A stretch of DNA of 64,000 nt from Salinirussus salinus (GCF_009831455.1 NZ_WOWO01000002.1:1116001-1180000), one strand, 5' to 3'. Positions 34,205 through 48,761 are shown, counted from the first letter of the stretch. The notes: generated from the letters alone by a model not told the origin. Translations and numbers: made by a program.

Positions 34205-34279
34205 GCCGGTGTAGCTCAGACTGGCTAGAGCGATTCCTTCGTAAGGAATAGGCCGAGGGTTCAAATCCCTCCACCGGCT
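34205..34279 (+). tRNA. trnT: tRNA-Thr (anticodon CGU)
   Basis: 75 nt. The acceptor stem GCCGGTG pairs with CACCGGC and the discriminator is U. The D arm is GCTCAGACTGGCTAGAGC; the anticodon stem ATTCC/GGAAT encloses the loop TTCGTAA with anticodon CGT; the T arm is AGGGTTCAAATCCCT. It reads the ACG threonine codon. Its 3' 29 bp form the attL core and are repeated at 41479-41507. No intron; CCA is not encoded. Confidence 0.95.
34251..34279 (+). other. attL (3' end of tRNA-Thr)
   Basis: 29-bp core GGCCGAGGGTTC...CCACCGGCT shared exactly with 41479-41507. Bases on both outer sides differ between the two copies, which defines the repeat boundary. Confidence 0.92.
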
Positions 34280-34805
34280 CTCGCTCCGCTACGCTTCGCG
34301 AAGTACCGTAACCAACCGTTAGAGCCCGCTAGACATAAGTTTTCGCCTCAGGGTATCCTCAGTACGACCCGAATTGAATAGTTCTACCAGCCGAAATTGC
34401 CGGTAATCTGCCTTCCGAATTGAATAGCTGAACTACCTGCGGCCGACCCGTCCCGTGTTTTCGGAAAATCCCACTCGTTACCAATTCACCAGATATGAGA
34501 GTGAGAGGGAGCCCGGAGAAGCGCGAAATTGCTCCCGGTGATGGGTACGGGAGCCTTGTGAGCTACAGGGTGTCTCGGCTCTTGCACCGACAGCAAGTGA
34601 TTGACGCGGAAGGGACAGCAGGTATCAAGTAAGTCTTCCGATAGTTACCCCACATCGCCTACGCGGAGGAGATAGCTGGTCCTTCATCAGACTGGGAGGG
34701 CGTGACTCACGCAAAGTTGAAGCAAAGGGTGCTTGCCCATACCTAGCGAGAGGTGGGTTGGGAGTTCTGCCTGAGTAGCAGTGGAATCCAATCGATTAAC
34801 AATTC
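34280..34805. other. Non-coding left flank of the element with short direct repeats
   Basis: 526 bp between tRNA-Thr and the cargo pair. CCGAATTGAATAG occurs twice, at 34369-34381 and 34415-34427, spaced 46 bp; these could be recombinase arm-type sites. One short frame, 34495-34632 (+, 45 codons, MRVRGSPEKREIAPG), is open but has no recognisable features; I do not call it a gene. Nothing else is supported. Confidence 0.5.
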
Positions 34806-35606
34806 CTATCCCTGTCCGTTTTCTGTAGATATATTCAATTCTCGGCGGACATATAAGAGAGTGTCCGTAGAATTAGTCGCGATTTGAGAGAACTGTTCCA
34901 TCTCTTCTTCATTCCGGTCAATCTCAATGGAATGTGCATCCGAATTGGCTGAGTCTCTAAATTCATCCATTTTATTCACTAACTCCTCGTCCATACGGTT
35001 CGAGAAATGCGCGAAGTCTGCCATATTATCTTCCAAGTTTTGTAATAAATCAGAAAATTTCTTAAACTGACCGTTTTCTATATTATAGTAGAGTCCAACA
35101 CCATCTTTGGAATCGCCATATTGACGCCGCAAGAGGTCAATAACGAGATTCTCGAGAAGTTTACGAGTGAGAACAAACGTTGCATCGTCAACCCCAATCC
35201 GATAGCACTTATTAATATCACGGATGAGGGTTTCATAGAACTCTTCATCAACTTCGGTCACTTCAATGAAAGAGCCGTGGCGAACCTCTCTGGAATGTTC
35301 TGGAATGTCAACTAACTCTCCGTAATGGTCGATTCCGGGGTATGTCAGACGATAGCCATTCTCGACCTGGGTGAAATGGTCATCATCTTCTTCAAGTCGG
35401 TTGATATACGTGCTTACGTGTCTGGAATTAATAGTCTCTCGAGAGGATTCAACAGTATCAATAATATCGGCCGATGTGAACGATTTTCGTCCATATATTT
35501 CATCAAGATAGTAGCCCGTTAATCCGACTAATTCTTTTTTTGAAATATCGCGATGCTCAGAATGTCGCAAGAACTCGTCGAATGAAATAGTACCTCCTCG
35601 CGACAT
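34806..35606 (-). CDS. Cargo protein B: HTH-like N-terminus with DUF4145/HEPN-like C-terminus
   Basis: 266 residues in AT-rich DNA. Residues about 20-95 look like a winged helix (KKELVGLTGYYLDEIYGRKS ... ESSRETINSRHVSTYINRLEE, then GYRLTYPGI). The C-terminal half is helical, with FVLTRKLLENLVIDLLRRQYG and, later, RDSANSDAHSIEI. The last resembles the R..GN.AAH signature of DUF4145/HEPN-related domains, some of which are RNases in abortive-infection systems. The similarity is weak and the catalytic R-x4-6-H is not exact. Its ATG abuts the stop of the upstream gene, so the two are one operon. Function unknown. Confidence 0.72.
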   Translation of the reverse strand: MSRGGTISFDEFLRHSEHRDISKKELVGLTGYYLDEIYGRKSFTSADIIDTVESSRETINSRHVSTYINRLEEDDDHFTQVENGYRLTYPGIDHYGELVDIPEHSREVRHGSFIEVTEVDEEFYETLIRDINKCYRIGVDDATFVLTRKLLENLVIDLLRRQYGDSKDGVGLYYNIENGQFKKFSDLLQNLEDNMADFAHFSNRMDEELVNKMDEFRDSANSDAHSIEIDRNEEEMEQFSQIATNSTDTLLYVRRELNISTENGQG

Positions 35607-36335
35607 TCAGACACCTGCGTTGTCTGCCATTTCCTTTATTAATTCATACCCGCGGTCCTGTCCCAATGGTACGATACCAAGTTCAGTGCCTCTCTTCTCG
35701 CCTTTCTTCTGGAGATATTTTTCCCAATCTGAATGATTGTATATCCGTTTGAATCGGTCGTCCTTGAGACCAGACTGTTCGAGGTCATCCACTATATCAA
35801 CGGTATTCCGCCAGAACACGTCGTGAACCGAGGACCACAGGGTGAGAAGAACGACAGAGGCGTTGAGTGTCTTTTCGCGCTTGGAATCCCCCGGCAAGAA
35901 GTTGCTCGCCAGTATTCTTGGTCCAGAATCGGAATCCCCAATTTCAATTACTTTCTTTAACTGGTTTTTGTCCAAGCCCGTCTCTTCTGCTATTAGACGG
36001 TACTCATCACTTTCGTCATCTTCATCTGGCTCTTCGGTTCCGGAGTCTTGTTCCGTATCGCCAGTTACCGCCTCGTCCACCGGCTCTTCAACGTGTGATT
36101 CCGGCTCTTCAACCGCCTCCGAGCTGCTCCCATCATCTTCTATCTCATCCCACGTGACTTGCTCTTCCTTACCCTCCCAGTCGAAACGAGTCGCTTGAAG
36201 GTCGCCATTTACCATCTGATGATAGTCGCTCACGAACTCTGCAAGTTCATCGAGTGCTGAACAGAAGTCGTCGCCGTCCTCTGCTTCTATATCAGCTGAT
36301 ATTGGGCCATCCTCGAAATGAACTTCAACCCTCAT
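35607..36335 (-). CDS. Cargo protein A: acidic-linker protein of unknown function
   Basis: 242 residues from ATG 36335 (MRVEVHFEDGPISADIEAED). The N-terminal 55 residues form a small alpha/beta domain; residues about 60-112 are a Glu/Asp/Ser linker. The C-terminal half is helical (LIAEETGLDKNQLKKVIEIG, an HTH-like helix pair; then ASVVLLTLWSSVHDVFWRNT) and ends in a basic lysine-rich region (WEKYLQKKGEKRGTELGIV). An upstream in-frame Met six codons earlier is possible. Its stop codon is followed directly by the next ATG. I recognise no family. Adjacency to a DUF4145/HEPN-like gene and cargo position suggest a two-component accessory system. Confidence 0.7.
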   Translation of the reverse strand: MRVEVHFEDGPISADIEAEDGDDFCSALDELAEFVSDYHQMVNGDLQATRFDWEGKEEQVTWDEIEDDGSSSEAVEEPESHVEEPVDEAVTGDTEQDSGTEEPDEDDESDEYRLIAEETGLDKNQLKKVIEIGDSDSGPRILASNFLPGDSKREKTLNASVVLLTLWSSVHDVFWRNTVDIVDDLEQSGLKDDRFKRIYNHSDWEKYLQKKGEKRGTELGIVPLGQDRGYELIKEMADNAGV

Positions 36336-36355
36336 CTTCGATATTAAGCACAAAA

Positions 36356-36384
36356 TTACGGCGCTTATTATTACTTACGGCGCT
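36356..36384. promoter_or_regulatory. Two 10-bp direct repeats upstream of the cargo operon
   Basis: TTACGGCGCT occurs at 36356-36365 and 36375-36384, centres 19 bp apart (about two helical turns), 21 bp upstream of the cargo A start. TATA-like AT-rich sequence surrounds them (TAATAATAAG on the reverse strand between the repeats and GATATAAAATAAC farther upstream). Arrangement and position suggest an operator. Confidence 0.5.
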
Positions 36385-36442
36385 GGGGGTAATGGCGTGT
36401 GTAAACAGATAATGATATGTTTGTTATTTTATATCCACATAT

Positions 36443-36886
36443 CTACACATCGGCTCGATAGCACGGCCAGCACGGAAGGTCGCCTGAGCCCGGCCCATCG
36501 CAGTCCGAGTCTCCGTTGGGACAGCTCCCCTCGGAGACAGCTTCACCAGACTTCACAGGCCTCGAACAGGTGCGGGCCGCATCAAGTACGACCGGGTTCC
36601 CAATGAGTGCCAGTGCGACCTTGTGTTTGCAGTCCTGCTCGCGGTGAATATCAGCAGGACACTCGCATTCGGCAGGGAACGCTACCCCGTCCCGCACCGC
36701 CACGCCGACCGTATAGGTGTGGTCGGCTTTCTCGAACCCGTAACTCGCGTTGGCCACTTCCACCAGGTGCGGGCCCACAATTGTGAACTCGAAGGCTTCC
36801 CACTCGGCCCGTTTGGCGGTCTTCTTGTCGAACGAGAGGTATTCAACAGCGGTACGCTTTTCTGCCGGCTTGGCGTCGGTTTGCAT
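36443..36886 (-). CDS. SWIM zinc-finger protein
   Basis: 147 residues from ATG 36886 (MQTDAKPAEKRTAVEYLSFD). The SWIM motif is clear: CECPADIHREQDCKHKVALAL, that is C-x-C, then C-x-H. SWIM domains bind DNA or proteins and occur in bacterial SNF2 partners and haloarchaeal mobile elements. A Cys-rich tail (CPNGDSDCDGPGSGDLPCWPC) may hold a second zinc. The frame continues upstream to 37021, but without similarity. Divergent from the winged-helix gene at 37058. GC is nearer host level than in the cargo pair. Confidence 0.82.
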   Translation of the reverse strand: MQTDAKPAEKRTAVEYLSFDKKTAKRAEWEAFEFTIVGPHLVEVANASYGFEKADHTYTVGVAVRDGVAFPAECECPADIHREQDCKHKVALALIGNPVVLDAARTCSRPVKSGEAVSEGSCPNGDSDCDGPGSGDLPCWPCYRADV

Positions 36887-36984
36887 TGCTTCTGGTCTCC
36901 ACAGAAGCACCGGTCGCGTGTCCCACCACGCGGCCACTTTCCTCGTGACAGAACCGGGCTTCCTACTCACTCGTAGGAGCGTGT

Positions 36985-36995
36985 CAGTATATAAC
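36985..36995 (-). promoter_or_regulatory. TATA-like box between the SWIM and wHTH genes
   Basis: The reverse strand reads GTTATATACTG. It would give a SWIM message with a leader of about 70 nt that contains the inverted repeat CCTAC...GTAGG (about 36962-36977). Confidence 0.4.
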
Positions 36996-37057
36996 ACTTG
37001 TGAACGTATGCATTTGTTCATAAGACTAATGCACGCCCGCGCCCGAACAAGGAACTA

Positions 37058-37264
37058 ATGGCAGACATTGACCTCAGTCCGACCGACCGCGCCATTCTCG
37101 AAATGCTCCGGGAGGGTCGCGCCACACCGGCCTACATCGCCGCCGAGACCGACTACTCGCGCCAGCACGTCCGCAACCGACTCCAGCGTCTAACGGAGCA
37201 CGGGTACGTCACACGGCTCCACAAGGGCCTCTACGAGCTGGCAGACGACCCCGAACAGGGGTGA
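37058..37264 (+). CDS. Winged-helix regulator
   Basis: 68 residues that are nearly all one winged helix: LSPTDRAILEMLREGRATPA, recognition helix SRQHVRNRLQRLTEHGYV, and wing TRLHKGLYELADD. Such short MarR/PhiH1-like repressors are common in haloarchaeal viruses and plasmids, where they control lysogeny or copy number. An AGGAAC run 5 nt before the ATG may serve as a ribosome-binding site. It lies divergent from the SWIM gene, the usual position for a regulator that controls both. Confidence 0.85.
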   Translation: MADIDLSPTDRAILEMLREGRATPAYIAAETDYSRQHVRNRLQRLTEHGYVTRLHKGLYELADDPEQG

Positions 37265-37463
37265 ATACAGGAGGGGGCGTGGGTTAGAACACCGTACCCG
37301 AACGCTGGCCCGTGTCCGATGGTGCCCACCTCGATAAAATGCACCAAAATCCAAACGCAAAGGCGGTTTAGTCAACGAGGCGGTACTGTTCGGGGAAGCA
37401 ACGAACGCGGTCGGCGGGGCTTCCTTGCTACTCCCGAGTTCTGGAACCCGGGTTGAACCCGGA

Positions 37464-37508
37464 CACACCCCATATTGTATAGTATATGGCCTATGTCGGG
37501 GTGGTGTG
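37464..37508. promoter_or_regulatory. Nested inverted repeats at the helicase 3' end
   Basis: CCATATTGTATAGTATATGG (37470-37489) is a near-palindrome. It is flanked by CACACCCC (37464-37471) and GGGGTGGTGTG (37498-37508), which pair. It could be a terminator for the helicase-like gene on the reverse strand or a protein-binding site; no decision is possible here. Confidence 0.45.
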
Positions 37509-39359
37509 CCCAAAGGTAACGTGACCGTAGGGAATGGCCTCCTCAGCACGGAGGTTCCAATACCGATACCCAATCCCCTCCCCCAGATGCTTTCTGCCAA
37601 TGTACCCGTACTCCGCTAACGTCTTGAGATTGCGTCTCACCTGCCTCGGGCTGAGTTCGACTACCGGGTTATCAACAATGTCGGATGTTTTCCACTCCGT
37701 ACCCGACGCTTTAGAGCCGATGGCGGCCAGGACTTGTTCCATTCCGTTTCGATTGCCGGTATCCCATTGGTGGACATTGACGTGCTGATAGGATACTGGA
37801 ACCCATTCCGGAAGAGCCCCAGTATGGACGTAGACGGTCGCACCTCGTGTGCCATCAACTTCCTCTCGTCCAAACCGCAGGACTGCCTGCAATACCTCGT
37901 TTTCACGCAGCCCGTGTAGGAATCTATCCCCAAAGTCGCCGTATGAGCGTTTGACTCCCCTTTCCCCATTCCACTCAATCGATTCGCCTGCCAATGCCCC
38001 GAGCAATACCAATTGTGGGTCACCGGGCGCAGGGGAACCGGCTATCACACCTAAGCGTATCTCTCCAAAATCGTTCATCCCCTTAATATCGTAGTAGTGT
38101 CCAATCCGGTCGATGTGGCGTAGCGCATCCGCTTCTTCGTACTGCTCAATTGCCTTCTTGCTGGTGATGAGCGATGGGCTGCTGCTCTCTCGTTGCTCGA
38201 TGGCAGCGAAGAGCGCTCTGTCCTTTGAGCGGCTGACCCATTTTCCACTATTATACGGCTTTATATCACCAGTTGTCTGAATGATGGTCAGGCCGAGGCC
38301 GTCTCGCACATATCTTCCTTTGTCTTTGTCGTTAAGAACCGGCACAGATTCCATCTGGTCACCGAGTACCAGCCGCCACAACTCTACAGTCGGGGTGCCG
38401 TCAAGTGCCACAATACTCTCCGAGGCCGTCAAATCCGGACGGCGGAGAATGGTTAGTTCCCCATTTGAAGGGTTGCGTGCCGTGACTTCGCCTGTTGGAA
38501 GTTCTGTCCGTTCCCAGCCGTTTTCAAGTTCGTGGCAAGCAAGAAGCGCGTAGGTCAACCGAGCGCCGTCAGGGTGAATGGGATAGAGCCCATCTCGTAA
38601 TTCACTGCTCTGCTCAACTCTTAAGCCTGGGTTTCGGTCGTTGAACCATTCGATAGCCTTGGCAACCAGACTGAGGTCCCCGCAGCTTACAATGTCCTTG
38701 GCGAACCGGAAGGGAATGTCTTCGTGCTGCTGAAGATAGTCACCGACCGCTGAGGTAACAGCATTAGCATCGAACGTGGTCATATATTCCCCTTCCGGAA
38801 ATTCGTCTATGGCCAAATACCGGCCTGCAATCCTCTCACGAACGTACGAGTGCCTGTAGTGTCCAATCAATACATCAATATCACCGGTCTCAGTTGAGTG
38901 GGCCTCACAGTAGGGACACGCACCCTCCCGCTCGCAGGGGAGTTCCTTGCCGAATAATTCCGACGCGTGGGTGTGAATGCTCCTGCCGCCCGTGTCAGTG
39001 CCTTCATACGCCTCGGTGACACGGTCGGCCCACTCCTCGCCGTATTCGCCACTTGCAGTCGGGCAGTCGTGGTGGAACGATGGGAGTATATGATAGGTCA
39101 GGCCGTGGTCCTTGCACCACCCAGCATATTCCTGGTACAGGTCACGTCGGGCGGTCAGGACGGTGAGCGGCTCCCCTGTCTTCGCCGCCCATCGGATGAC
39201 ACCCGAGCTCTTTCCCATTGCCGGAAGCGCGTCCAAGAGAACGGGCGACGGGTTCTGAAATGCCTCGACAATGGCTTTCTCGCAGAGACTGCGTGCCGTG
39301 TTGAGAATCGTTGTGTAGTCAGAATCGGTACCGCTCGGCAATTGGGTGTTTGAGCTCAT
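37491..39359 (-). CDS. Superfamily-2 helicase-like replication protein
   Basis: 622 residues from ATG 39359, which has an AGGTGA Shine-Dalgarno about 9 nt upstream. The P-loop is PVLLDALPAMGKSSG (about residue 45), and YLAIDEFPEGEY (about 185) serves as a Walker B. Between them are Cys and His residues (SFHHDCPT, LPCEREGACPYCEAH) that could form a zinc or Fe-S site as in XPD-like helicases. VALDGTPTVELW resembles motif III. The C-terminus is a winged helix (VVELSPRQVRRNLKTLAEYG). Similar proteins occur in haloarchaeal plasmids and proviruses; a replication role is inferred. Codon use is intermediate between host and AT-rich cargo. Confidence 0.78.
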   Translation of the reverse strand: MSSNTQLPSGTDSDYTTILNTARSLCEKAIVEAFQNPSPVLLDALPAMGKSSGVIRWAAKTGEPLTVLTARRDLYQEYAGWCKDHGLTYHILPSFHHDCPTASGEYGEEWADRVTEAYEGTDTGGRSIHTHASELFGKELPCEREGACPYCEAHSTETGDIDVLIGHYRHSYVRERIAGRYLAIDEFPEGEYMTTFDANAVTSAVGDYLQQHEDIPFRFAKDIVSCGDLSLVAKAIEWFNDRNPGLRVEQSSELRDGLYPIHPDGARLTYALLACHELENGWERTELPTGEVTARNPSNGELTILRRPDLTASESIVALDGTPTVELWRLVLGDQMESVPVLNDKDKGRYVRDGLGLTIIQTTGDIKPYNSGKWVSRSKDRALFAAIEQRESSSPSLITSKKAIEQYEEADALRHIDRIGHYYDIKGMNDFGEIRLGVIAGSPAPGDPQLVLLGALAGESIEWNGERGVKRSYGDFGDRFLHGLRENEVLQAVLRFGREEVDGTRGATVYVHTGALPEWVPVSYQHVNVHQWDTGNRNGMEQVLAAIGSKASGTEWKTSDIVDNPVVELSPRQVRRNLKTLAEYGYIGRKHLGEGIGYRYWNLRAEEAIPYGHVTFGHTTPT

Positions 39360-39889
39360 TCTATTTTTCACCTGAAAGCCAAATTTGGCCAGTAGGAGTT
39401 CAGCAACTCAAAGATGCGATTAACCGGCAGCCCGGGAGAATCGCTCTCTCACTATTCTATTCTCATAGTATATCTTATATTTATTGGCATATGGCTGCCT
39501 TTAGATACAATTTGAATGCCTGGTGCGTGTTGCGACCGTGGCAGAGAGCTAATATGACGAGCGGGCCCCACAGATAATAACCATAAGTAATTAAATTGCT
39601 GCCGGGCTCATACAATCACTCCTGGTCGCAACCGTTTAGTTGGTTCTCCTGTCTACCGGTGCTCCGCTGCTGTTGCTTCGTCGTAATGGTTCCTTGCTAT
39701 ATCCAGGGCCGAGCCGGAACAACCGGGAAGCTCAACTGGAGATGGGCTTCAAAAGCTGTGCTGAATGGGGAGCGGGGTCTTGCGACGGGACAGGTGTTCC
39801 ATACAGAGCGTGTACGCAGCAGTCGGCCTTCGTTGGTTTCAGCCCGGTTTTGATGAATCAGCCGGTCAGTAGGCGTGCAGATTGAGGAC
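39360..39889. other. AT-rich non-coding region, possible origin/control region
   Basis: About 530 bp. A perfect 12-bp palindrome GCCAAATTTGGC (39378-39389) lies 19 bp upstream of the helicase start. AT-rich tracts follow (about 39463-39488 and 39578-39598). Frames at 39596-39885 are open on the forward strand but Arg/Ser/Cys-rich without family features; I do not call them genes. Palindrome plus AT-rich tract beside a replication gene would suit an origin or an autoregulated promoter. Confidence 0.45.
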
Positions 39890-40195
39890 TCACAGCCAGT
39901 CGTCGGGGAGTTCATCGGCGTGGTTGTGTAACAACTCAAGAAGCGGTCGGATTTCGTCGAATCTTGGTCCCCTCATTACTTCGTGAGTGTCCCGATTCCA
40001 GAGGATGAATCCCGCCTCTTCCAACTGAGGGAGGTGTACGTGATAGAATTCTATCTGAAGAGCCTCCAGCGATTTCTCCCCCTCGTGAACATCCTCTGGA
40101 ACAACTATGGAGTCTCGCTGTGGATTGTGTTCGAGTAAGGCGACGAGTAATCGCCGGCGATGAGCATCCGCTAACGCCTGGAAATACTCGTCCAT
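39890..40195 (-). CDS. ArsR-like HTH regulator (DUF7344 type)
   Basis: 101 residues from ATG 40195: MDEYFQALADAHRRRLLVAL, then a short linker, and IEFYHVHLPQLEEAGFILWN, the recognition helix and wing of the haloarchaeal DUF7344/ArsR-like winged helix. It probably regulates element genes. The frame extends upstream to 40300, but those residues are basic and unrelated. TATA-like TGTATTAAC (reverse strand, about 40219-40227) lies about 27 nt before the ATG. Between the helicase and integrase genes. Confidence 0.82.
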   Translation of the reverse strand: MDEYFQALADAHRRRLLVALLEHNPQRDSIVVPEDVHEGEKSLEALQIEFYHVHLPQLEEAGFILWNRDTHEVMRGPRFDEIRPLLELLHNHADELPDDWL

Positions 40196-40386
40196 TTGCC
40201 CCAAACATATTGGACTGTTAATACAAGTGCGTTCCGCATTAACCATCAGGTGTCGTCTCCGTATCAACCGATTTGGATAGGACTGATTCCGGCACCCCAC
40301 GGTGACCGATACGCGTGCTCTCGGTAACGCTCTGTTGAATACACCCTTACTGTCAGTCCCGGGGGTTGCAAAGGAGCCCGAATGAG

Positions 40387-41394
40387 CTATATGTCTTTCA
40401 GGTGCCCTCTCCTGCGTTCGGCTTTTTCGTCGTAAGAGCCCTTGTCGTAGTGCTTTTCGAGGATTTTCCCACTCATATTGACCCGTTCACCGGTAACGTC
40501 CTTTGGCTGTCCAGCGTTACGGGCAGCAGTGACGTATCCCCTCCTGAGCGCGTGCGGGCTGACTGAACCCGGACACTTGCTGGCTTGGTCGAACCGCGTT
40601 GCTTCGCAGGCGTCGGGTTCTTTGCCGAATGGGCAGTCGCCGTTGTTGTAGGTACAGGGCCGGGTAGCAGTGTAGACGTACTTTTGGATGGTAGTCCGGG
40701 CAACCCTTCCTTGGTCGCTGGCAATCAGTGGTCTCCTGCCGCTATCGTCTTCGACGTTGGGGCGCCCGTTTTCGATGTAGTCTGTTATTGTGTCGGCCAC
40801 CTCAGGCTGAATGAGAACGTCGCGCTGGCCCTTGGATTTCTTTTTGAGTGGCGTTCTGCTTTCAGGTCTGTGCCGTAGTTCGAGCGCGGGCCTGCCGTCA
40901 TCGAAGTCTTCTACATCAAGTGCCCGAAGACCGCTGATTCTCATTCCCGTTTTCCAGAGTATGAGGACGGACAGGTGCCGGTTGCTGAGATAGTCGTATT
41001 TCCCGAGGTAGTCCAGAACGGCTTGAGCTTCTTCGCGGGTCAGGAGTTCTTCGCAGATTTCGTCTTCTTCGGAGACCTTGGGGATTCGGATAAGTTCATT
41101 CAGCCCGACCGGAACCGCCTGGATGGTCTCGCAGAACTCAATGAAGTTCTTGATTGTCCGCATATCGTTGCGGGCGGTTATCGGCTTCACGTTGTCGAGG
41201 CGGTGTTCTTTGAATTGGTCTATGGTATCTGAGTCCACGTCTCTGAACTCGGTGTACCCGTTGTCGGTGAGCCAGTCCACGAATTGGCTGGTCGCGGTGT
41301 CGTAGTTGTATAGGGTCTTGTCGGTGACGTGTGAGCGTTTTTCTTTCAGGTAGCGAGTCTTGGCGTCGTGCGGCGGGATTGGTTTCAGTTCCAT
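40387..41394 (-). CDS. Tyrosine recombinase/integrase
   Basis: 335 residues from ATG 41394 (MELKPIPPHDAKTRYLKEKR). The N-terminal SAM-like core-binding domain (TLYNYDTATSQFVDWL) is followed by the catalytic domain: first Arg in KTGMRISGLRALD, then the His-x2-Arg HALRRGY, and the nucleophile Tyr in KILEKHYD. A Cys-rich insertion (CTYNNGDCPFGKEPDACEA ... SKCPG) is common in haloarchaeal integrases. It lies 84 bp from attR, as expected for the enzyme that made this insertion into tRNA-Thr. Upstream in-frame codons reach into attR and are not used. Confidence 0.95.
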   Translation of the reverse strand: MELKPIPPHDAKTRYLKEKRSHVTDKTLYNYDTATSQFVDWLTDNGYTEFRDVDSDTIDQFKEHRLDNVKPITARNDMRTIKNFIEFCETIQAVPVGLNELIRIPKVSEEDEICEELLTREEAQAVLDYLGKYDYLSNRHLSVLILWKTGMRISGLRALDVEDFDDGRPALELRHRPESRTPLKKKSKGQRDVLIQPEVADTITDYIENGRPNVEDDSGRRPLIASDQGRVARTTIQKYVYTATRPCTYNNGDCPFGKEPDACEATRFDQASKCPGSVSPHALRRGYVTAARNAGQPKDVTGERVNMSGKILEKHYDKGSYDEKAERRRGHLKDI

Positions 41395-41478
41395 TGGCGC
41401 AAACCTCTGCTCACGGTACCCGAGCACGAAGCGTCTGTAAGGAGCGTAACCGCCCGAGGGCGTTAGCCCGAGCGGCGG

Positions 41479-41507
41479 GGCCGAGGGTTCAAATCCCTCC
41501 ACCGGCT
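41479..41507 (+). other. attR
   Basis: Exact copy of the 29-bp tRNA-Thr 3' end at 34251-34279. The 5' part of a tRNA is absent here, so this is a recombination scar, not a second tRNA. Confidence 0.92.
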
Positions 41508-45911: not shown

Positions 45912-46298
45912 ATGTCACGAGGGGCCGGCGTCGACGGCCGCGACGAGCCCGCCCGGGACGGCGACGACCACGCCGAGTTGCTCTCCACGCTCGACTCCCA
46001 CGACCTCGCGCTCGGGATGGACCTGGTGGAAGCCAGCGAGTCCGGCGCCTTCGAGTTCGAGCCCGACGCCGACCCGGCGGAGGCGTTCCCGCAGTCGGTC
46101 GCCAGCGGCGGCCCCACACCCACGGGTGTCATCCTCTGGACGCGGGTCCATCTCGAGGGCCGGCTCGCCCCGGACTCCGAGTACCACTGCCGGTTCAGTT
46201 ACGACGGCGTCCCCTCCCGTCCCGGACGGTATCGGACCTTCCCCCGTCCGGACGACCACGCCGACTCGGTCCGTTTTGACGTACTCACCTGCCAGAAC
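45912..46298 (+). pseudogene. phoD: Truncated phoD-like alkaline phosphatase
   Basis: Similarity to PhoD runs from DPAEAFPQSVASGGPTPTGVILWTRV through LAPDSEYHCRFSYDGVPS and ends at DSVRFDVLTCQN, the point where intact PhoD continues into the metal-binding catalytic domain. The gap between the WTRV strand and LAPDSEYHCRF is shorter than in full PhoD, so there may also be an internal deletion. After position 46298 the frame continues with unrelated residues to a stop at 46412. The active site is gone; this is a remnant cut by the insertion or rearrangement that brought in the following DNA. Confidence 0.75.
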
Positions 46299-46300
46299 GA

Positions 46301-46549
46301 CCTGAAGCAGCCTCGAAACAGCCAGATCCCGACTATGACCTCCTCATCGGTAACTTCGAAGTGGTCGAATCAGGGACAACGGTCGTGTGTAGCGACGGGG
46401 AAGAATACGTAGCCGATGGCCCCTCCGTTTCGAGTCTGATGTCCGAAACAGGGTATGACGACACCCCCGGGTACGAAGGTGCTGTCGCCGGCAAGACGCT
46501 TCCGTCAGCACTCGAAGCTTGGCGAGCCACCCCGATACCCATGAACTGA
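46301..46549 (+). pseudogene. Fragment of an unidentified coding region
   Basis: An open segment in another frame, starting at the phoD break: PEAASKQPDPDYDLLIGNFE, then VVESGTTVVCSDGEEYVADG and a C-terminal TPGYEGAVAGKTLPSALEAW, with a stop at 46549. Composition is protein-like, and the segment has no start of its own at the left end. The C-terminal remnant of a gene joined to the phoD fragment is the simplest reading. Translation from the GTG at 46361 (62 residues) cannot be excluded. Confidence 0.45.
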
Positions 46550-46716
46550 TTTCCCCGTGCCGTTGTGTAGAGAGTAACTGTTCTTTGATGCAAACATCCC
46601 CCCTGTCTCGAGTAGCTACCGGGACCTCACCTCGCCGGAGGGAGGGGGTGCCAACCGTTCTGTGACACTCCCATCCGTATCTGAACTGTGAGTACGTACG
46701 TCAACGGCGGTTTCTC

Positions 46717-47139
46717 GTGGCTTCACTGACTGAAGCCAATCAGAACGCCTGGAACGGCACAACACCTATTGACACGACAGGAGATGCACCAATCATCGTG
46801 TCCGACGTGCGAGACCCCGAAGCCCTCGCAGACCTCTTGGGCGATGAGTGTGCGCGCACGATCCTTGTTGAAGCGAAGAGGGAGCCCCGCTCGGCGGAGG
46901 AGCTCAGCGACTTTGCAGGAGTTTCCGAACCGACGGTCTACCGGCGGCTGGAACGCCTCCGCGAGTACGATCTGGTTACCGAAGACATCCAGCCTGTCAC
47001 CGACGGAAAGAATTACAAGCTCTATCGGACGGAACTCGACGGAATTGAACTCGACCTCAGCGAAGACGGCTTCGAGGTCACGGTCTCACGTCGGGAACGG
47101 ATGGTCGACCGCTTCACACAGTTCGTAGAGGGAACCTGA
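46717..47139 (+). CDS. Winged-helix regulator of HTH/membrane pair (copy 2)
   Basis: 140 residues from GTG 46717. The winged-helix core is EALADLLGDECARTILVEAKREP, ELSDFAGVSEPTVYRRLERLREYDLVTE, and the C-terminal half NYKLYRTELDGIELDLSEDG mirrors the paralogue at 22813-23160. The two share the VYRR-x-xRL recognition helix and the beta tail. The N-terminus is longer here (about 30 extra residues); a GTG at 46798 is an alternative start. The next gene begins 1 nt after its stop. A+T-richer than the host average, in a patch that interrupts phoD. Confidence 0.8.
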   Translation: MASLTEANQNAWNGTTPIDTTGDAPIIVSDVRDPEALADLLGDECARTILVEAKREPRSAEELSDFAGVSEPTVYRRLERLREYDLVTEDIQPVTDGKNYKLYRTELDGIELDLSEDGFEVTVSRRERMVDRFTQFVEGT

Positions 47140-47140
47140 C

Positions 47141-47458
47141 ATGCTCGATACGCCGCTCCAATTGATCGACCTCGAAACGCTACGAACAGTTCGGCAGGTG
47201 AGTGAGCTGATCCCTATGATCCTCGGACTGGCGATCAGTTACCTCGCCTACACCGCATACCGGCAAAACCGGAGTCGTCCGATGCTATACGTCGCAGCCG
47301 GGTTCGTGTTAGTACTGTTTGTTCAGCTTCCGCTGAGTCTGATACTGCTCTATCTGCTGGAGCTTCCAACTCCGGTTCTCAACAGCATCGTTCAGATACC
47401 CGAGTTCATCGGGCTAGGACTGATTCTCTACGGACTGTGGGTGCCGCGTCGGGACTGA
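47141..47458 (+). CDS. Three-helix membrane protein of HTH/membrane pair (copy 2)
   Basis: 105 residues with three hydrophobic segments: SELIPMILGLAISYLAYTAY, MLYVAAGFVLVLFVQLPLSL, and IVQIPEFIGLGLILYGLWV. Between the first two is a basic loop (YRQNRSRP) that matches the paralogue at 22514-22816 (YRGFRRNDSR). It starts one base after the HTH stop. Probably a membrane partner of the regulator. Function unknown. Confidence 0.78.
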   Translation: MLDTPLQLIDLETLRTVRQVSELIPMILGLAISYLAYTAYRQNRSRPMLYVAAGFVLVLFVQLPLSLILLYLLELPTPVLNSIVQIPEFIGLGLILYGLWVPRRD

Positions 47459-47747
47459 CCTGGCGGCTCACATCCGTGTCTATGACAGGTGGCCGAACGA
47501 GCACTAACCGTGTGTTATCGTCGATAAATTCTCGTGTGTAGCCCGGTTGAGGGGCGAGCAGACCAGGCGACCTCGGCGACATCAACACTGGCCTCAAGTG
47601 CATACCGGAGTCGTATAGATATTCCACATCTGGTGGGTGTCGACATTCTTGGGGAACTCCGTCCAGCAGCCCCAGCAGGATGTTAGCTTCAGCGAGTGAA
47701 GCCAGCAAAACCGCCCTTTTCTCATGCGTCCATATCTTCAGGTGTCG
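47459..47747. other. Intergenic region, no supported gene
   Basis: 289 bp between the HTH/membrane pair and the CPBP gene. A reverse-strand frame gives residues such as SLAEANILLGLLDGVPQE, which might be a decayed coding piece, but there is no supporting start or motif. Confidence 0.4.
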
Positions 47748-48761
47748 ATGACCGAAGCAGATACCGACACCAACTTCGAACGAACCGCATCCCGGTCGGC
47801 CGATGACGACCGGCGAGCCGATCGCGGTGGAATCACGGGACACGTCGCCTCCGTGCTGTGGAATCGAACCGAGAATCGCCCCCGTGCACTCTGGCGGATC
47901 CTCGGAGTGTACGGCGCCTCGTTCGTGGGGATTTTCGTGCTCCCGGCGCTGGCGCTCGCGGGAACCGAACTCCCGCCGTCGGTGGCCGGAGCCGCCCAGA
48001 ACCTCATCGCTGCCCTTACCGGGCTCCTCATGGCGGTTGGTGTCGCGAAGTACGTCGACCGGCGACCGTTGACCGACTACGGACTCGCGTTCAGCCCGTC
48101 GTTCCTGAAGGACTTCGGCGCTGGCAGCGTCATCGCCCTGGCGGGGATGGCGGTGGCACTCCCCGCGAGTCTGATCGCCGGGTGGGCGACCGTCTCCGAG
48201 GTGTTCTCGGGTGGCGTCGGTACGAACGTGTTGCCGTTTGCCGCCGCGTTCGGAGTGTACACCATCCAGTGGGCGTTTACAGCCTTCTGGGAAGAACTGG
48301 TCTTCCGGGGTATCATCCTGACGAGTGCCGTCGAAGGGTTCCAGAGTCGGTGGCTGTCCGACCGTGGCGCGGTCGTGGCAGGGGTGGTGGCGTCCTCGCT
48401 GATATTCAGTCTCGGGCACTTCCCGGGTACGCTGGAAAAGTTCGGATTCCGGCTGGCTTTAGGGCTCCTTCTCGGGGCCGCGTACGTGTGGACCGACTCG
48501 CTGGCGCTGCCGATCGGCCTTCACTTTCTGGTCAACTTCGCGATGAACAACATCTACGGCCTGTCGAACTTTCTTGAGGCTGCGGAAACAGCGATGCTGA
48601 TCCGGCCGACGTTCACCGGCCCGGCACAGTTCGTAGGGGTGTACGGGGCAGTCAACGGCGCAGCGGTGCTCTGTGTCGCTGCGCTCACTGTCGGATACGT
48701 TGCCCTCCGGAACGGCGATCTTGGGTCGCGGCTGTCGTCGGCGTACCTACAGCGAGACTGA
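47748..48761 (+). CDS. CPBP-family intramembrane metalloprotease
   Basis: 337 residues from ATG 47748 (MTEADTDTN); an in-frame ATG at 47724 would add eight. Multi-pass membrane protein with the CPBP/CAAX-Rce1-like motifs: AFWEELVFRGIIL (Glu-Glu-x3-Arg), SLIFSLGHF (His), and LPIGLHFLVNFAMNN (His/Asn). These residues form the putative active site of the family, which includes CAAX prenyl proteases and immunity proteins. Natural substrates in haloarchaea are unknown. It lies at the right end of the patch that starts at the broken phoD. Confidence 0.85.
   Translation: MTEADTDTNFERTASRSADDDRRADRGGITGHVASVLWNRTENRPRALWRILGVYGASFVGIFVLPALALAGTELPPSVAGAAQNLIAALTGLLMAVGVAKYVDRRPLTDYGLAFSPSFLKDFGAGSVIALAGMAVALPASLIAGWATVSEVFSGGVGTNVLPFAAAFGVYTIQWAFTAFWEELVFRGIILTSAVEGFQSRWLSDRGAVVAGVVASSLIFSLGHFPGTLEKFGFRLALGLLLGAAYVWTDSLALPIGLHFLVNFAMNNIYGLSNFLEAAETAMLIRPTFTGPAQFVGVYGAVNGAAVLCVAALTVGYVALRNGDLGSRLSSAYLQRD

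Follow-up and report, generated by a model that had tools for sequence, protein, structure and literature searches.

The locus and its integrase

We analysed an element of 7,228 bp that lies at a tRNA-Thr(CGU) gene in a 64,000-nucleotide stretch of the Salinirussus salinus genome (GCF_009831455.1, NZ_WOWO01000002.1:1116001-1180000). The whole stretch is called the window below and positions are counted from its first nucleotide. An intact tRNA gene stands at one end of the element, a direct repeat of the tRNA 3' end marks the far boundary and an integrase gene lies inside, adjoining one of the two attachment (att) sites, the arrangement of a tRNA-integrated element. Seven open reading frames (ORFs) are found between the att repeats: A, B, C (SWIM), D (winged helix-turn-helix, wHTH), E (helicase), F (helix-turn-helix, HTH) and the integrase gene. 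The features are given with the basis of each call in parentheses.

34205..34280, plus strand: tRNA-Thr(CGU), intact, the integration target (ARAGORN)
34251..34279, plus strand: attL, 29-bp core equal to the tRNA-Thr 3' end (29/29 exact against attR)
34369..34381, plus strand: direct repeat copy 1, CCGAATTGAATAG, putative integrase arm-type site (0/300 shuffles)
34415..34427, plus strand: direct repeat copy 2, putative integrase arm-type site (as for copy 1)
34806..35606, minus strand: gene A, 266 amino acids, wHTH plus HEPN-like domain, predicted effector cargo (AlphaFold2 (AF2) model, Foldseek, family alignment, AbiJ_NTD5 relatives)
35607..36335, minus strand: gene B, 242 amino acids, partner of A in a conserved operon (conserved adjacency)
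36443..37021, minus strand: gene C, SWIM zinc-finger protein, likely start near 36886 (Pfam SWIM, E-value 0.0015)
37058..37264, plus strand: gene D, 68-residue wHTH regulator, divergent from C (profile match, relatives)
37491..39371, minus strand: gene E, 626-residue superfamily 2 (SF2) helicase of XPD/DinG fold with a C-terminal wHTH, stand-alone form of a plasmid replication protein (AF2 model, Foldseek, alignment, tree)
39890..40300, minus strand: gene F, DUF7344-like HTH protein, likely start near 40195 (E-value 2e-5, below the Pfam cut-off)
40387..41394, minus strand: integrase, 335 amino acids, SNJ2-type tyrosine recombinase with all catalytic residues and a Cys4 insertion (profile matches, alignment)
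41479..41507, plus strand: attR, second copy of the 29-bp core (exact against attL)

The element length is the distance between the starts of attL and attR, and the match extends beyond the exact 29 bp to 31 of 32 identical positions. The repeat is far beyond chance because an exact 29-mer falls at the tRNA 3' end and the integrase gene adjoins the second copy, its start lying 84 bp from attR. The G+C content is 0.65-0.73 in the flanks and 0.41-0.60 inside, and goes up again just past attR. The original prediction had proposed an element in tRNA-Thr(CGU) with intact attL and attR and a recombinase, bounded by an exact 29-bp repeat of the tRNA 3' end and carrying an integrase, HTH and wHTH regulators, a helicase-like protein and a SWIM protein. 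The ARAGORN call, the identity of the two cores and the G+C break bear out the boundaries, and all of the named genes are present. A second stretch of lowered G+C content (0.55-0.58 versus a background of 0.65-0.75) was seen at window positions 46250-47750.

The integrase has the full catalytic set (R152, K184, H281, R284 and Y316) and an invariant four-cysteine insertion (C247/C254/C263/C274). Its identity is 37% with the SNJ2 integrase, across 100% of the length, and 43% with the HRPV-9 integrase, also across the whole length; both values exceed the threshold for SNJ2-type integrases of at least 30% identity over 60% of length (PMC8371274). As in other members of this type the gene is not interrupted upon integration (it is non-suicidal), being whole inside the att sites. 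Its start was set at the ATG at 41394 rather than at the GTG at 41502 inside attR because the relatives start at the aligned MSLKPTPPHDAKNRYL; the residues that the longer frame would add inside attR (MEGFEPSA...) come from the tRNA end read in reverse complement. SNJ2-type integrases are confined to Halobacteria (review PMC8371274).

Searches with Pfam and PHROGs recognised no gene for a capsid, terminase, spike or relaxase, in agreement with the original prediction, which had seen neither structural virus genes nor a relaxase. Relaxases were also absent from the NCBIfam matches, and the element thus does not class as an integrative and conjugative or integrative and mobilizable element. Spike, matrix and capsid genes likewise gave no Pfam or PHROGs match, and identity as a pleolipovirus or other provirus was rejected on these grounds. 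A satellite that uses the particles of a temperate helper virus, a pleolipovirus or one similar to it, would lack structural genes of its own as this element does. Among sequenced viruses the integrase is nearest to those of the pleolipoviruses HRPV-9, SNJ2 and HHPV4, and gene D is 56% identical to a protein of halovirus BJ1 with another relative in halovirus Halfgib1. However, neither E nor C matched any of 50,697 phage records, genes for packaging or capsid interference were not recognised and no link to a helper was seen. We consider a satellite quite unlikely. The satellite named in the original prediction has in its favour only the lack of structural genes and the viral (SNJ2) type of the integrase.

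The integrase family and the cargo of its elements

The sample surveyed for integrases comprised 243 genomes of the order. Full-length relatives of more than 62% identity were found in 15 other genomes, nearly all with a tRNA-Thr 3' end 65-240 bp upstream of the integrase gene (the exception is locus L183). Most of the loci fetched had an intact tRNA-Thr gene (CGU or GGU) at the end away from the integrase, with 22-36 bp repeated exactly. The repeat was 15-18 bp at decayed loci of the family and 19 bp at L211, the integrase of which is more distant (51%). Element lengths across the fetched loci were 1.8-11.3 kb, and 11 relative elements were well bounded (4.2-11.3 kb). More distant integrases of the family (40-55% identity) lie at other tRNA ends, and therefore target choice follows integrase lineage. 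A further scan of a collection of genome contigs with the integrase yielded relatives of 38-49% identity only. The search for related elements at tRNA-Thr in haloarchaea, which had been proposed as a check on the original prediction, thus returned the same integrase at the same tRNA class, and the comparison establishes the boundaries, integrase type and target specificity of the window element. No description of this tRNA-Thr integrase family was found in the open-access literature searched, and the family is apparently undescribed so far.

On the inner side of attL the window carries two identical 13-bp copies of a direct repeat, at 34369 and 34415. Four relative elements (L197, L198, L206 and L209) have a repeat of 11-13 bp and different sequence at matching distances (69-91 and 105-128 bp), and several other GGU-type elements have degenerate repeats at like positions. 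None of 300 shuffles reached the paired repeats of the window or of any of the four relatives. From their position and recurrence these pairs look like integrase arm-type sites.

ORF clustering of 12 elements (the window element and the 11 relatives) found only the integrase gene to be universal; C was present in three elements, D in two and E in two. The 11 relatives have in common the integrase and att sites, and in several cases the paired repeats inside attL, and nothing else. Cargo proteins, taken as the largest ORFs, were scanned with PADLOC at an E-value threshold of <1e-6. Defence matches, with Pfam support, were found in 7 of the 11 relatives: a type IIG restriction-modification (RM) system plus an MBL candidate (L198), a methyltransferase (L202), HNH nucleases (L203 and L207), a SIR2 protein of PDC-S65 plus a kinase (L206), type IV restriction (L208) and an ApeA-HEPN protein of PDC-S58 (L209, which also carries an E-type helicase of 42% identity). 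As a control, flanking chromosomal proteins gave 0/10 matches. The enrichment of defence genes is suggestive, coming from a largest-ORF scan and not from a formal statistic; that several members carry predicted defence cargo is well supported. Two further protein families recur. One of 177-222 residues is found in seven elements with different cargo (L198, L199, L202, L203, L205, L206 and L208) and could be a directionality factor or a regulator. The other, of 238-241 residues, adjoins the integrase in L197 (17453-18172), L199 and L206, in which the remaining cargo differs; the two proteins tested gave no Pfam or PADLOC match.

Members of the family also decay, as would be expected if the window element were an immobile remnant, its att sites and integrase gene intact by chance or through recent arrival and its excision impossible. 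Element L087 is a 2-kb remnant and at L183 (the G039 integrase) the codon of the catalytic tyrosine has become a TAA stop, by which this family member is precisely inactivated. An integrase fragment lies in G207 between a tRNA-Thr and a UspA-like gene, which in this genome alone are 4.9 kb apart. In the window element, by contrast, every ORF is open, neither the catalytic residues nor the two att cores are damaged and the two arm-type repeats match exactly. A remnant therefore seems distinctly improbable, and the element is probably still mobile. In a metagenome-assembled genome of the same genus and in most relatives the trm5-tRNA-Thr locus has no second att copy, but the UspA and acyl-CoA dehydrogenase genes of the right flank have a different location in nearly all of them. 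In L078 (near 1278) and L091 (near 1770) a repeat of the tRNA-Thr end of 20-24 nucleotides lies only 100-160 bp downstream of the tRNA; these are perhaps leftover att sites after element loss.

The B-A operon and helicase E

Relatives of A were found in 21/293 genomes and of B in 10/293. B immediately precedes A in the window and in G106, G012, G074 and G150, and also in G229, where it is a split frame; in L106, a Halorubrum plasmid, the two genes are separated by a short antisense ORF. In G074 the pair is inside a tRNA-Phe element together with an integrase and a relative of E. The AF2 model of A (predicted local distance difference test score, pLDDT, 88) shows a wHTH followed by an all-helical domain. 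Foldseek matched the N-terminus to wHTH regulators and the helical domain to the HEPN structures 2hsb and 2q00 with target-normalised template modelling (TM) scores of 0.72-0.73 and a probability of 1.00, but with E-values of 0.2-0.3. In eight members of the A family the same C-terminal domain is preceded by AbiJ_NTD5. A has the spacing R-x7-H, in which the arginine is not conserved in the family, and the invariant positions are RK..E and AH. No match to B was found in the databases searched, among them Pfam, PHROGs, PADLOC and NCBIfam. A and B are the window's own cargo, with A a predicted wHTH-HEPN protein for which a defence or toxin role is most likely, at slightly better than an even chance.

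The AF2 model of E (pLDDT 84) has DinG, XPD and CasDinG as its top PDB matches by Foldseek. The Walker A, DE box and motif VI sequences are conserved, as in the SF2 fold, and four cysteines (C86, C103, C146 and C152), two of them invariant, lie between motifs I and II at the position of the Fe-S domain. Relatives of E were found in 57/195 genomes and on 17 plasmids. On the 8.9- and 10.8-kb plasmids and in further elements the relatives have a primase at the N-terminus, which is of one or the other of two unrelated types. A Prim-Pol domain is fused in L062 (E-value 3e-10) and, as judged by eye and context without a Pfam match, in L103, whereas DnaG_N/Toprim is fused in L104, L070 and L063. E itself has about 20 residues before the helicase, compared with N-terminal parts of 358-758 residues in the fused relatives, and belongs to a clade of nine stand-alone helicases (support 100/98). 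E is probably a plasmid-type replication helicase that works without a primase of its own; the replication role is suggested by the primase fusions and small plasmids of its relatives. No description of XPD/DinG-primase fusions was found in the open-access literature searched.

Several side observations concern these relatives. L062 (7163-10027) and L063 (6766-9837) have 84% of helicase residues and 80-88% of the surrounding DNA in common but differ precisely in the N-terminal primase, which is Prim-Pol in L062 and DnaG_N/Toprim in L063. This is a recent swap between unrelated primase folds. Four IMG/VR contigs (L159-L162, about 7.6-26 kb) with primase-fused helicase relatives are filed as viral and may be plasmids rather than viruses. 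Recoding of a recurrent in-frame TAG in helicase relatives was considered and rejected; the TAG is the natural stop past which tblastn had read.

Given such relatives, the element could be a cryptic integrated plasmid in which E is the Rep protein, the integrase provides lysogeny-like maintenance and A and B are maintenance genes rather than defence genes. The original prediction had named a small integrated plasmid. Relatives of E are the main large gene on circular plasmids of 8.9, 10.8 and 23.7 kb, two of which also have an integrase, and relatives of C are common on haloarchaeal plasmids. However, the primase half is absent from E, several of the nine stand-alone helicases lie in tRNA-bounded or integrase-bearing chromosomal elements and sister elements with the same integrase have no recognised replication gene. 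The link to plasmids through the helicase family thus stands, and a plasmid as such is possible, though we favour it less than a mobile cassette. It has also to be asked if E is part of a defence system of the DinG/CasDinG kind. CasDinG is among the Foldseek matches and stand-alone relatives of E adjoin type I RM and other defence genes: loci of the clade, some of them (L055, L056, L060 and L061) taken without mapped element boundaries, contain type I RM, type IIG RM, a Druantia/HEC-06-like protein (PADLOC Orf5/HEC-06) and a methyl-directed restriction enzyme. Against this, E has no PADLOC match, and the fusion of its close relatives to two unrelated primases speaks for replication. We regard a defence role of E as unlikely.

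Of the small regulators, C has relatives in L197 (55%), L198, L055, L062 and L063, and D is 82% identical in L197, where it adjoins the same integrase type.

Interpretation and comparison with known systems

We think it likely that the element is an integrated, site-specific mobile cassette of a haloarchaeal family, with an SNJ2-type integrase, interchangeable cargo that is often defensive, a predicted B-A effector operon and a plasmid-type helicase E. The integrated plasmid or satellite of the original prediction is right in part. That the element is a mobile cassette of the SNJ2-type tRNA-Thr integrase is well supported; the activity in integration and excision is predicted. The full-length integrase would recombine a circular 7.2-kb form with the tRNA-Thr 3' end such that the tRNA is restored. 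The constant part of the family is the integrase and an attP with paired, putative arm-type repeats, the remainder being swappable cargo that, by family matches, is often for antiviral defence. A is most likely a toxin-like effector of abortive infection that is restrained by B, its partner, or by its own wHTH, and E most likely helps the excised circle to replicate via the host primase, since the primase domain fused in its plasmid relatives is absent.

A number of observations weigh against this interpretation. No contiguous empty site with both flanks joined was found among the relative genomes. No excised form was found and the assembly has no second copy of the integrase gene or of E. The A family alignment shows no conservation of the RX4-6H motif, the Foldseek E-values of A are weak (>0.01) and A itself has no PADLOC or Pfam defence match. 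A recognised defence gene is absent from 4 of the 11 relatives, the cargo scan was limited to the largest ORFs and the control set was small (10 proteins).

The window element itself is ordinary-looking; the family, apparently undescribed, is the more interesting. One island becomes a defined element family with mapped ends, and therefore new archaeal defence genes can be sought as cargo between tRNA-Thr and the integrase. The helicase family would be an archaeal replication system on an XPD/DinG fold and provides a natural experiment in primase exchange. More tentatively, and at somewhat less than an even chance, a dedicated haloarchaeal tRNA-Thr integrase module may shuttle swappable antiviral systems, some members having recruited an XPD/DinG-type helicase from a primase-swapping plasmid replication family.

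Genomic islands of Halorubrum ezzemoulense with integrase and RM genes have been described (PMC11078007). Like the window element they have low G+C content, lie near tRNA genes and carry an integrase plus restriction-modification or hypothetical genes, and some pairs of islands have the integrase alone in common; the part of that report considered here does not set out a family of tRNA-Thr integrases in which att sites and arm repeats are mapped and the cargo is exchanged. Prim-Pol proteins, with some homologs that lack the primase, are also known from small archaeal elements, but the helicases there are of superfamily 1 (PMC4158269). On the plasmids NZ_CP095486 (8.9 kb), NZ_CP100453 (10.8 kb) and phalar02 the helicase module is 37-39% identical to E over about 92% of its length and is fused to a primase (Prim-Pol-like or DnaG_N), which E is not. 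E shares the fold, Walker A, DE box and conserved cysteines between motifs I and II with XPD/DinG helicases of superfamily 2, but at very low sequence identity, with a C-terminal wHTH and in a context that is not that of a repair gene. The predicted HEPN-like fold of A would resemble that of the abortive-infection proteins AbiJ and ApeA, and its C-terminal domain is the one joined to AbiJ_NTD5 in relatives, whereas A has a wHTH N-terminus, the partner B and no canonical RX4-6H. In comparison with the SNJ2-type integrases and SNJ2-like integrated elements (PMC8371274), the window element has tRNA-Thr as its target, no virus structural genes and an integrase of a distinct clade (more than 62% identity within it), and has in common with them a full-length, non-suicidal integrase with SAM-like and catalytic domains and a site at a tRNA 3' end.

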